A stretch of 39,201 bases of DNA from contig JAIRKD010000029.1 of NCBI GenBank assembly GCA_031260285.1, positions 1 through 39,201 of the forward strand. The letters run 5' to 3'. This document shows positions 1 to 15,910 of this stretch, piece by piece. Both the position numbers and the translations under genes were made by a program. The notes below the pieces were generated by a model. The model saw nothing but the letters and a program-made list of their open reading frames with translations. It was not told the DNA's origin and did no database searches. Positions within the stretch are counted from its first letter, which is position 1, and the number at the start of each line of letters is the position of its first letter. The DNA comes from Gemmatimonadota bacterium. GTDB lineage: Bacteria; Gemmatimonadota; Gemmatimonadetes; Longimicrobiales; Longimicrobiaceae.

Positions 1-886
1 CTTCATGGTGAACAATTCACCGTTTGCCGGCCGGGAAGGGAAGTACGTCACCAGCCGTCAGCTGCGGGAGCGGCTCTTCAAGGAGCTGGAGCACAATGTG
101 GCTCTGCGCGTGGAGGAGACGGACTCTCCGGATACGCTGACGGTTTCGGGGCGCGGTGAACTGCACCTCGGCATCCTGATGGAGACGATGCGGCGCGAGG
201 GGTATGAGTTCTCGGTCTCGCGGCCGCGGGTGATTCTGCGCACTCATGAGGGTCAGCGGCAGGAGCCCTATGAGGAAGCAACCATCGACGTGCCGGAGGG
301 GCTTACCGGACCGGTGATCGAGAAGCTGGGTCAGCGGCGTGCGGAGATGCTGGAGATGCGGAACCCGGGTGGCGGGCTTGTCCGGCTCATCTACAGGATC
401 CCGGCGCGCGGCCTCTTCGGTTACCAGTCCGAGTTCCTGACCGATACGCGGGGTGAAGGACAGCTTCACCACCGCTTCCTTGAGTACGGCCCGTACGTCG
501 GACAGATGTCCACGCGACTGCGCGGTGTGCTGGTCAGCATGATTGACGGAGTTTCGGTGGCGTACGCGCTTGGCCAGCTCCAGGAGCGGTCCACCTTCTT
601 TGTGGCTCCCGGCGATCCGGTCTACGAGGGGATGGTTGTGGGTGAGAACGCCCGGCCGGGCGACATGGAGGTGAACGTCACCAAGGGTAAGAAACTCACC
701 AACATGCGCGCCTCCGGCTCGGACGATAACATCCTTCTGGAGCCCCCGCGGCGGATGTCCCTTGAGGACGCTCTCGGCTACATCGCGGACGATGAGCTGA
801 TCGAGATCACGCCCAAGGCATTCCGGTTGCGGAAGCGGGTTCTGGGCGCAAGCGACCGGAAGAAAGCATCTCGCGTATCCGCCTGA
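1..886 (+). CDS. typA: Ribosome-associated GTPase TypA/BipA, 3' part (5' end outside window)
   Basis: C-terminal part (about 294 residues) of TypA/BipA, a translational GTPase that binds the 70S ribosome and supports ribosome assembly and stress adaptation. The reading frame is open from base 2, and the GTPase domain lies upstream of the window. Visible are the segment [11 protein letters not shown]-like ([17 protein letters not shown]), the EF-G-like motif [10 protein letters not shown] near residue 50, the domain V start ([10 protein letters not shown]), and the TypA-specific C-terminal domain with [17 protein letters not shown] and ending in a basic tail. Full-length family members are about 605-615 aa, so roughly half is present. 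The ATG at 5 is an internal Met, not a start. No terminator-like hairpin is obvious directly after the stop. Confidence 0.95.
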
Positions 887-1267
887 GCTTCGGGGTATCC
901 GGGGCGGATCCGGAGCCCGATGCAGGCTGTGGCGAGGTCAGATGTAGAGGGGGAGTACGGAGCGTCTGTACCGCTGGAGCTGCAACGACGGTGACGGGAG
1001 CGGCGGTTGATTGACATACGGGAGAAGTGACGGATCGGGATGCGGTATGGTTCTTGTTGTGGCCGTCAGACGAGGTTGTGTCGCTTTTTATCCGTGCTTT
1101 ACAACCGGCTGCTCTTCGTCGTCCTGACGAATTTCTGAAAACAAGGTCTGCCTGTGGATCTTGACAGCTGTTGTCCGCCCCTTACTTTGCGGCGGAAATA
1201 CCCCACGGTGGCGTGTGAAGAGCGCCCTGTGAGCCCCACTCATCCGGCGTGGAGAGGAGACTTCGGA
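887..1267. other. Intergenic region typA to acidic-protein gene
   Basis: 381 bp without a convincing gene. It contains two perfect TTGACA hexamers (1011-1016 and 1161-1166). Only the second has a plausible -10 at normal spacing. An antisense reading frame here has no ribosome-binding site and no recognisable protein features. Confidence 0.6.
1161..1188 (+). promoter_or_regulatory. Candidate promoter for the acidic small protein
   Basis: Perfect -35 hexamer TTGACA at 1161-1166, 16-bp spacer, weak -10 TACTTT at 1183-1188, about 80 bp before the ATG at 1268. The -10 matches only three of six consensus positions, so the call rests mainly on the -35 and the position. Confidence 0.4.
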
Positions 1268-1513
1268 ATGGCGGATGTAATAGCGGTACCCGGAATCGAC
1301 GATACCCAGCACTCCTGGGCGGAACTCTTTGAGGCCCGCTTTGACGAGGAGGAAGACGGCTGGGATTCCGGCGAGGGTGAAAAGTGGGGCGAGGATGATG
1401 AGGAGTGGGAGGAAGAAGAGGAAGATGATTGGGATGACGAGGACGAAGACGATTGGGACGAGGAAGAGGACGAGTGGGAAGATGGTGAGGACGGGGAGGA
1501 CGAGGATTTCTGA
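1268..1513 (+). CDS. Hyperacidic Trp-periodic small protein (81 aa), unknown function
   Basis: Family not recognised. I chose the ATG at 1268 because GGAGAGGAGA (1251-1260) lies 7 nt before it; the frame is open further upstream but without such a site. Residues 1-25 are ordinary (MADVIAVPGIDD...). From residue 26 to the end, about 41 of 56 residues are Asp or Glu, with a single Lys. Trp occurs at 17, 32, 40, 47, 55, 63 and 70, so the last six are 7-8 residues apart. No signal peptide or membrane segment is seen, so it should be cytoplasmic. It is a stand-alone transcription unit with its own candidate promoter and a strong terminator. Possible roles (nucleic-acid mimic, cation buffer, chaperone-like tail) are guesses. 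Low-complexity coding could mislead, but the ribosome-binding site and terminator support a real gene. Confidence 0.7.
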   Translation: MADVIAVPGIDDTQHSWAELFEARFDEEEDGWDSGEGEKWGEDDEEWEEEEEDDWDDEDEDDWDEEEDEWEDGEDGEDEDF

Positions 1514-1814
1514 GGACTCCGGGCTGTAACTCCGGTTTCAGCCAGCCTCACCCCGGATTGAAGATCTTTTGCCACTGAGTGGCGAAATGACATAGAAAAG
1601 CCGATCGGCTCGTATGAGCTGGTCGGCTTTTGTTGTTCCCCCGTGTTCTCCGTGCTCCTGCCCTGCTGGCAGTTCTCCACCCTCTGATGCTTTCCCGCTT
1701 GTGTGGCCTGACCGTAAACCCCGGTTCTGGCCGTCGTGTTGCAGATCAGGACGAAAGCCGCTTCGGAGGGGCGCGCAGGAAGAAATGATCTGAACCCGGG
1801 GAGGGGGAGCCGTC
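1514..1814. other. Intergenic region holding a terminator
   Basis: About 300 bp. It holds a small hairpin GCCAC/GTGGC (1571-1583), the strong terminator at 1596-1634, and the GAGGGGGAG ribosome-binding site (1801-1809) of the next gene. No further gene is seen. Confidence 0.6.
1596..1634 (+). terminator. Rho-independent terminator after the acidic-protein gene
   Basis: A 16-bp stem with three G-U wobbles pairs 1596-1611 with 1616-1631 around a 4-nt loop. The 3' arm ends in TTTT and is followed by GTTGTT. The A-run at the 5' foot means it could also act on the minus strand. Confidence 0.8.
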
Positions 1815-13630: not shown

Positions 13631-15910
13631 ATGACCTCGAACCAGGCCATAGACTCTTCCGCGTCCGCAGCCGCTCGCTCTCCTGCAGTTATGGGTGAAC
13701 TTCCATCCTCCCGCCGGTTCCGGGGGATCGAGGTACTTTTCACCCTCGCCATCTTTGCGGGTGCGTTCCTGCTCTTCCTGGTGCAGCCGATGTTCGGGAA
13801 GATGGTTCTCCCGCTGCTGGGCGGTTCACCGGCGGTGTGGAACGCGTGTATGCTTTTCTTCCAGGTCGCTCTGCTTGCGGGGTATCTGTACGCTGATGCG
13901 GGAAGCCGCTGGATTTCCCCGAAGAAGCAGTGGATGCTGCACCTTGTACTGCTCGGGGTTGCGCTGGCACTGCTTCCGATCTCGGTGGGAGCTGCTCCCG
14001 CTGGTGACGCCGCACCGATCCCCTGGCTGCTGGGGACGATGTTTCTCTCGCTTGGTGTGCCGTTTGTGGCGCTCTCCGCGACCGGTCCGCTGCTGCAGCG
14101 CTGGTTTGCGCGTAGTGGAGCTCCGGGCGGGGAGGAGCCGTATCACCTGTACGCCGCCAGCAACCTGGGGAGTATGCTCGCCCTGCTGGCCTACCCGCTG
14201 CTGGTTGAACCACGGTTCCGCCTGACGGAGCAGTCGCTGGTCTGGACAGGCGGGTTTGTGGCACTCATCGGACTGATTGCGGCCTGCGGAATCCGCAGCC
14301 GGTGGACGGGGGGGTTCATTGCTCCTGATGAATCCGTGAGGGATGAACTCAACAGCGCTGAGGGCTCGCGCCTGACGGTACGGGACCGGCTCTTCTGGAT
14401 CGCGCTTGCGTTTGTTCCCTCTTCTCTGCTGCAGGGGGCGACCACCTATATCACCACCGATGTCGCACCCGCGCCGCTTTTCTGGGTGCTTCCACTCGCG
14501 CTCTATCTGCTTTCCTTCACTCTGGCGTTCTCGCGGAGGCAGCTGCTCCGGCGCAGCACACTGCTCACACTGCAGCTGATTGCACTGGGCGGAGTGATGG
14601 TGGTGATGCTCCGGTCGGACAGCCTGCGCAACCCGAGTGTCTGGATTCCGCTTCATCTTCTGGCACTCTTCCTGACGGGGCTGGTGTGCCATGGGGAGCT
14701 GTCGCAGCGGCGACCGGCCGTGAACCACCTGACCGAGTTCTACCTCTGGGTTGCGGCGGGTGGAGCGCTGGGCGGGGTGTTCAACGTGCTTGTCGCTCCG
14801 GTGATCTTCTCCCGGCTCTGGGAGTACCCGGTTGTACTGGTGCTCGCCTGTCTCGTCCGTCCCTGGCAGGGGATTATTCCCGGCGGGCGTCGGTACGCCC
14901 TCTCCTGGGCGCTGCGTGCCGCCGGAGTTGCGGCGCTTCTGGTGATGCTCACGGATCCCCGGTTCAATGTACTGCCCGTCTGGGGGTTCCTGGCGGTTGC
15001 CCTGCTCTCGGGATATCTGGCGACACGGATCCTGGGGAGCGCCCCTTTCTGGCTTGCCCTGTCGCTGGTGCTTGCGCTCACCTTCCGGATGACAACGCAG
15101 ATCCGTACGGAAAACACTCTGCTCGTGGAGCGTTCCTTCTACGGGCAGTTCAGGGTGAACCGGCCGGAGGGGTACACGCTCCTGCTTCATGGGTCAACGC
15201 TGCATGGCGTGCAGAGTACCAACCCCGATCGGCGGAGGGTGCCGCTTTCCTACTACGCGGAGGGAGGACCGTTCTGGCAGCTGATGAGTGCTGTTCGCGC
15301 CACGAACCCCACGCTCCGGGTTGCGGTTGTGGGTCTGGGAACCGGCAGTACTGCCGCTTACGCGGCCCCCGGGGATGACTGGACCTTCTATGAACTGGAT
15401 CCGAATATCATCCGGGTGGCCCGGGATACCTCTCTCTTCACCTTCCTGGCGGACTCACCAGCTCCCGTGAGGGTGAAAGCCGGAGATGCCCGACTCTCGA
15501 TTCAGAGCGAGGAGCCGGGCCGGCAGTTTGATCTGATTGTGCTGGATGCGTTCAGCTCCGACGCAATTCCCACCCATCTGCTGACGCTGGAGGCGATGCA
15601 GGTCTTTCTGGACCGCCTCGCGCCGGGGGGAAGAATCACCATTCATATCAGCAACCGGTATATCGATCTGCGCCCGGTTCTGGAGGCTTCCGCGCGGACG
15701 CTGGGCCTGGCGACCCGTATCGAGTCAGGCCCGATCATAATTGTGGAGGGAAGTTATACGACGGTTGCCACCTGGGTGGCGATCGCCCGCGACCCGGCGG
15801 ACCTCGAAGGGCTGACGGATGAAGATGGCTGGATGGACCTTCAACCAACCCGCCGGATCGAGCCCTGGACGGATGATTTCACTAGTCTCTGGCCTGTGAT
15901 GCGATGGTAG
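13631..15910 (+). CDS. Membrane protein with C-terminal spermidine-synthase-like methyltransferase-fold domain
   Basis: 759 aa, of the family often annotated as fused MFS/spermidine synthase. The first about 490 residues hold many transmembrane helices (for example EVLFTLAIFAGAFLLFLVQP, with MVLPLLGGSPAVWN after it). The cytoplasmic C-terminal domain has a Rossmann fold: VVGLGTGSTAAYA, FYELDPNIIRVA, GDARLSI and LIVLDAFSSDAIPTHLLT, matching the polyamine-synthase-type nucleotide site. Real spermidine synthases are soluble and about 290 aa; in this family polyamine synthesis is not established, so no gene symbol is given. The start is uncertain: ATG 13631 has no good ribosome-binding site and ATG 13691 is an alternative. 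Neighbours give no metabolic clue. Confidence 0.85.
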   Translation: MTSNQAIDSSASAAARSPAVMGELPSSRRFRGIEVLFTLAIFAGAFLLFLVQPMFGKMVLPLLGGSPAVWNACMLFFQVALLAGYLYADAGSRWISPKKQWMLHLVLLGVALALLPISVGAAPAGDAAPIPWLLGTMFLSLGVPFVALSATGPLLQRWFARSGAPGGEEPYHLYAASNLGSMLALLAYPLLVEPRFRLTEQSLVWTGGFVALIGLIAACGIRSRWTGGFIAPDESVRDELNSAEGSRLTVRDRLFWIALAFVPSSLLQGATTYITTDVAPAPLFWVLPLALYLLSFTLAFSRRQLLRRSTLLTLQLIALGGVMVVMLRSDSLRNPSVWIPLHLLALFLTGLVCHGELSQRRPAVNHLTEFYLWVAAGGALGGVFNVLVAPVIFSRLWEYPVVLVLACLVRPWQGIIPGGRRYALSWALRAAGVAALLVMLTDPRFNVLPVWGFLAVALLSGYLATRILGSAPFWLALSLVLALTFRMTTQIRTENTLLVERSFYGQFRVNRPEGYTLLLHGSTLHGVQSTNPDRRRVPLSYYAEGGPFWQLMSAVRATNPTLRVAVVGLGTGSTAAYAAPGDDWTFYELDPNIIRVARDTSLFTFLADSPAPVRVKAGDARLSIQSEEPGRQFDLIVLDAFSSDAIPTHLLTLEAMQVFLDRLAPGGRITIHISNRYIDLRPVLEASARTLGLATRIESGPIIIVEGSYTTVATWVAIARDPADLEGLTDEDGWMDLQPTRRIEPWTDDFTSLWPVMRW

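Follow-up and report, generated by a model that had tools for sequence, protein, structure and literature searches.

A typA-linked family of small hyperacidic proteins with conserved hydrophobic anchors in Gemmatimonadota

Introduction

Besides a folded N-terminal domain that binds RNA polymerase (RNAP), the delta subunit (RpoE) of Bacillus subtilis possesses an acidic C-terminal region, which spans residues 91-173 and carries a net charge of −47 (PMC7749165). In eukaryotes, the escortin Tsr2, one of the dedicated ribosomal-protein chaperones, has a mobile acidic tail joined to a folded domain. This tail uses acidic plus aromatic contacts to hold the basic ribosomal protein eS26 free of RNA (PMC6131548). 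In the acidic activation domains of eukaryotic transcription, acidic residues are interspersed with exposed Trp, Leu or Phe anchors, as formulated in the acidic exposure model (PMC10550315). The D/E repeats of eukaryotic DNA- and RNA-binding proteins are polyanionic disordered tracts that act as nucleic-acid competitors in cis, on the domain to which they are attached (PMC10250230). Among bacteria, CrsL of actinobacteria is a 5.7 kDa disordered protein with a conserved MLGIGP motif, which binds CarD and RNAP, folds upon binding its partner in transcription and occurs at rRNA promoters (PMC12709188).

Here, we analyse a hyperacidic 81-residue protein encoded in a 39,201-nt stretch of Gemmatimonadota DNA (the window). 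Its length and charge are close to those of the acidic region of delta (~80 residues, −44 compared with −47), and it is likewise predicted to be disordered and potentially nucleic-acid-mimicking. However, it has no counterpart of the folded domain of delta and matches no profile. The analogy with Tsr2 would lie in a mobile acidic tract that makes acidic plus aromatic contacts, whereas Tsr2 is eukaryotic and its tail is part of a larger, folded protein. Acidic activation domains share the interspersed anchors, but the family described here is more acidic and its anchors are unusually even. Unlike the D/E repeats, for which regular Trp anchors are not described, the window protein is free-standing. 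Like CrsL it is very small, probably disordered and bacterial, although descriptions of CrsL mention no hyperacidic Trp repeat.

Results

The window, which is contig 97 in an assembly of 2.76 Mb, starts inside typA/bipA. The ORF that follows on the same strand is identified by its sequence features as a real protein gene (Table 1). The encoded protein has a net charge of about −44 at pH 7 and a computed pI of about 4.05. Asp and Glu make up 41 of the 56 residues between positions 26 and 81 (73.2%), in agreement with the first-pass annotation of this DNA, which had put the fraction at about 73%. The six Trp residues it had listed, at positions 32, 40, 47, 55, 63 and 70, are also correct, and an additional Trp is found at position 17. 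The gaps between the last six are 8, 7, 8, 8 and 7 residues. When six Trp were placed at random in 56 positions, this evenness was matched in 1.9e-4 of the trials, and all gaps were 7 or 8 in 3e-5 of them. The claim that the spacing is too even for random acidic low complexity is thus borne out (P about 2e-4). Further along the window, a 759-residue ORF at 13631-15910 on the forward strand has no Pfam match.

Table 1. Positions of the hyperacidic gene, its expression signals and its upstream neighbour in the window
Feature	Position	Strand	Description
typA/bipA, 3' part (BipA_C, EFG_C)	5..886	+	Constant neighbour of the hyperacidic gene in relatives
Promoter	1161..1188	+	TTGACA 1161-1166, 16-nt spacer, TACTTT 1183-1188; from an alignment of upstream regions
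Shine-Dalgarno sequence AGGAG	1255..1259	+	Separated from the ATG by 8 nt; also kept in relatives (family group f1)
Hyperacidic protein gene	1268..1513	+	About 25 N-terminal residues, with a short helix predicted at 17-26, then the acidic tract with Trp anchors (26-81)
Intrinsic terminator hairpin	1596..1631	+	16-bp stem 1596-1611/1616-1631, GTAT loop, U-rich 3' arm

The expression signals are preserved among relatives, which are referred to below by the labels that a genome search gave to their family groups (f1-f11, f1 being that of the window). The host genome is a Gemmatimonadota genome related to Longimicrobiaceae. Judged by the typA product, its closest named record is a Gemmatimonadota MAG and the second carries the label Longimicrobiaceae, both of them f1 members. 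The good ribosome-binding site noted earlier is present, and a strong Shine-Dalgarno (SD) sequence precedes nearly every assigned ATG in f1, f2 and f5. The gene also has a conserved promoter, a feature absent from the first-pass annotation. All 15 aligned f1 loci keep its TTGACA hexamer and spacing, as do f2 and one f7 locus; it lies about 85-126 nt upstream of the gene in f1 and f2 and 72 nt upstream in the f7 locus (perfect TTGACA, 16-nt spacer). A GTG at 1154 would open a longer ORF of 119 residues; it was rejected as a start, as the promoter falls within that ORF and the ATG at 1268 is conserved with its SD. The strong terminator attributed to the gene was recovered as a stable hairpin (MFE z = −4.8 against shuffles). 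It was missing from the forward-strand list of a simple consensus scan, probably because its U run forms part of the stem. Opposite the gene, an antisense ORF spans 1240-1680. Since a GAN-rich coding strand readily leaves its complement open by chance, this ORF was set aside.

A search of GTDB contigs with the window protein as a single sequence found no homologues, probably because low complexity defeats BLAST, and homologues were therefore gathered by synteny, as short hyperacidic ORFs on the same strand directly downstream of typA/bipA. The window gene is itself such an ORF. Such ORFs are present in 62 of 107 Gemmatimonadota loci, distributed as 15/16 in f1, 6/7 in f2, 12/12 in f4, 22/22 in f5, 5/5 in f6 and 2/12 in f7. 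None was found after typA in the 27 loci of f3, which belongs to the same order as the window, or in the six loci of f8-f11. Among 62 typA loci from other phyla, there was no same-strand hyperacidic ORF, and a single Lys/Glu-rich ORF on the opposite strand exceeded the threshold. The absence in f3 covers the typA locus and the surroundings of two f3 16S genes. A copy that had moved elsewhere could escape profile searches, which recover f1 only and miss known f2 and f4 members, and a GAN-codon pattern search gave matches too numerous in every genome to be useful. Unless the gene has moved, TypA does not need a hyperacidic protein in f3. L050 is the single f1 locus that lacks the gene. The interval between its typA and the next gene (L050:2300-3500) is full of short direct repeats, GCACTTTCGCAC being one example, which suggests a rearrangement.

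Profiles of Pfam and NCBIfam gave no convincing match for the six members searched, and phage records gave no match. A profile search of the PDB returned one match, a carbazole dioxygenase (E 0.006), which was discarded as a spurious match of acidic composition. We also found no description of the typA-linked proteins in the literature; they appear to form an undescribed family, fixed in a majority of the sampled families of Gemmatimonadota.

The hyperacidic gene is under purifying selection, with dN/dS of 0.14-0.57 between f1 pairs and changes concentrated in third positions. An alignment of 13 non-redundant f1 sequences provided the check on homologues that had been proposed with the first-pass annotation: five Trp columns are essentially fixed (one Leu exception, a few gaps), and D and E both occur in 29 of 31 acidic columns. 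The two exchange almost freely, with a pair identity within the acidic columns of 0.61, compared with 0.52 expected under free exchange. Several f1 proteins have Leu at the one missing Trp place and maintain gaps of 6-8. Outside f1, Trp is spaced by 4-8 residues in f2, and Leu, Phe or Tyr take its place in the same acidic setting in f4, f5 and f6. Anchors are more even than in shuffled sequences in most f1 and f2 members and in some f4 members, and much less even in f5. Evenly spaced anchors are therefore under selection, strongly in f1 and f2, with a mixed signal in f4 and a weak one in f5.

A functionless origin of the period, by low-complexity drift or by tandem duplication of a GAN-GAN-TGG unit, would be compatible with the 21-24 nt periods reported by Tandem Repeats Finder. 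Slippage is seen in two f2 members, L023 and L031, whose units show excess wobble identity (z 4.2 and 5.3); this recent-looking expansion of acidic-Trp units is a route by which the tract can lengthen. However, wobble identity between the Trp units of the window gene is at chance (0.21 against 0.25), so its period is not the product of recent slippage. Drift is also at odds with a dN/dS well below 1, with the conservation of start, SD and promoter, and with the presence of the gene in several families over the class. We thus disfavour this explanation and consider it highly improbable.

The members differ at their C-terminal ends. A short basic motif, R-x-x-W-[DE] or similar, is present in f4, f6 and part of f2, and this common ending in Trp-Asp/Glu supports homology among them. 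Loci with the basic tail in f6 and, in part, f4 are L147-L150, L157, L158, L164, L229, L233, L239 and L240, and the tail in these two groups is possibly a separate binding motif. Neither the window protein nor f1 proteins in general have this motif; their C-terminal ends consist of acidic and hydrophobic residues instead. The kinship of f1 with the motif-bearing families rests on synteny and composition.

The earlier suggestion of repeated aromatic contacts on a polyanion is sound insofar as Trp columns are kept while D and E vary, but the idea that these contacts form one face is not supported. At 100 degrees per residue, the resultant of the Trp positions is 0.28 in the window protein and 0.34 under random placement, and a helix-face arrangement was rejected; values of other members vary widely. 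The variable spacing in f2 and the use of Leu, Phe or Tyr elsewhere also speak against a single face. AlphaFold, run with a four-sequence alignment, predicted coil with a single helix (residues 17-26) at low confidence (mean pLDDT 58, pTM 0.19). From its composition, extended disorder is the likely state of the protein.

In many f1, f2 and f5 loci, the gene is followed next by a co-directional 16S rRNA, commonly ~330 nt past the stop codon. No rRNA operon (rrn) follows the gene in the window itself, and its assembly yielded no 16S rRNA gene. Complete f5 genomes keep typA and the acidic gene together and have rrn elsewhere. As both the window and these genomes retain the pair without an adjacent rrn, the link with typA is more constant than that with rrn. 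In relatives, contigs with typA frequently end where the 16S gene starts. In several families, the rrn leader has a conserved element similar to T-TTGACAATC, located about 140-200 nt ahead of the 16S start (loci L005, L008, L014, L023, L031, L132, L137, L138 and L142-L145), which we take to resemble a boxA antitermination site. Further upstream of it in f1 and f2, GGGTTGAC[GA] and a TA-rich −10 element make up a promoter-like sequence.

Discussion

The sequence comparisons provide good support for a new protein family in which selection maintains an unusual rule of spacing; what follows on its function is a proposal. We tentatively favour the reading, with a probability of about 40%, that the protein is a disordered polyanion that carries hydrophobic anchors at intervals and acts in trans as a chaperone or decoy for one or more basic proteins involved in making ribosomes. 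After a short N-terminal segment, the polyanionic tract would present anchors at regular short distances, these being Trp in f1 and Leu, Phe or Tyr in other families. Its acidic residues would favour an extended conformation and attract a basic surface on a protein partner, and the anchors would contribute hydrophobic contacts along the chain. As an rRNA-like mimic of nucleic acid, the protein may thus shield basic partners from non-specific RNA until rRNA replaces it. Candidate partners include free ribosomal proteins, an assembly intermediate and TypA/BipA itself, which is a 50S assembly factor (PMC8313970). The idea of an acidic chaperone has a precedent in the Tsr2 tail, which holds a ribosomal protein off RNA (PMC6131548). 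The protein fits either a basic partner or nucleic-acid mimicry. It is gene order, beside typA and often ahead of rrn, that suggests a ribosomal role; conserved order next to rrn can also reflect co-location in highly expressed regions. The f3 loci, whose typA lacks the gene beside it, and the window, where rrn does not follow, count against this reading.

The main rival, which we likewise infer, is a delta-like action on transcription, in which a free-standing polyanion would enter the main channel of RNAP or bind a transcription factor, compete with nucleic acid and tune strong promoters such as those of rrn. The close match to the delta tail in size and charge (PMC7749165), the precedent of a small disordered regulator at rRNA promoters in CrsL (PMC12709188) and the location of the hyperacidic gene before rrn are all in its favour. 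However, the protein has no RNAP-anchoring domain and no match to delta or any other Pfam or NCBIfam profile, and the gene that constantly accompanies it is typA rather than rrn or an rpo gene, with rrn lying elsewhere in complete f5 genomes. We consider such a regulator rather unlikely.

It is similarly doubtful that the protein is a polyanion with no specific link to ribosomes, which sequesters DNA-binding or other cationic proteins, buffers Mg2+ or Ca2+, or forms condensates through its Trp stickers. Its composition would be compatible with these roles, and 30 of 37 members pass the activation-domain rule of acidic residues plus W/F/Y/L clustering, which indicates a general competence for binding hydrophobic patches (PMC10550315). 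Nevertheless, a pure charge buffer does not need fixed Trp columns, and any such role leaves the conserved linkage to typA unexplained.

A bolder reading is that a purely disordered polyanion serves as a lineage-specific factor in ribosome assembly or rRNA transcription, in which the functionally conserved element is a "ruler" of anchor spacing rather than a fold or an exact sequence. We regard this reading as speculative and, on balance, improbable. The family offers a clean evolutionary record for a hyperacidic disordered protein, in which selection keeps the spacing of the anchors and not the choice between Asp and Glu. If a role in ribosome assembly or rRNA synthesis is true, it would represent a bacterial, free-standing example of an acidic chaperone, a kind known until now mainly from the tails of proteins in eukaryotes. 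Cultured species of Gemmatimonas and Longimicrobium make its function testable.
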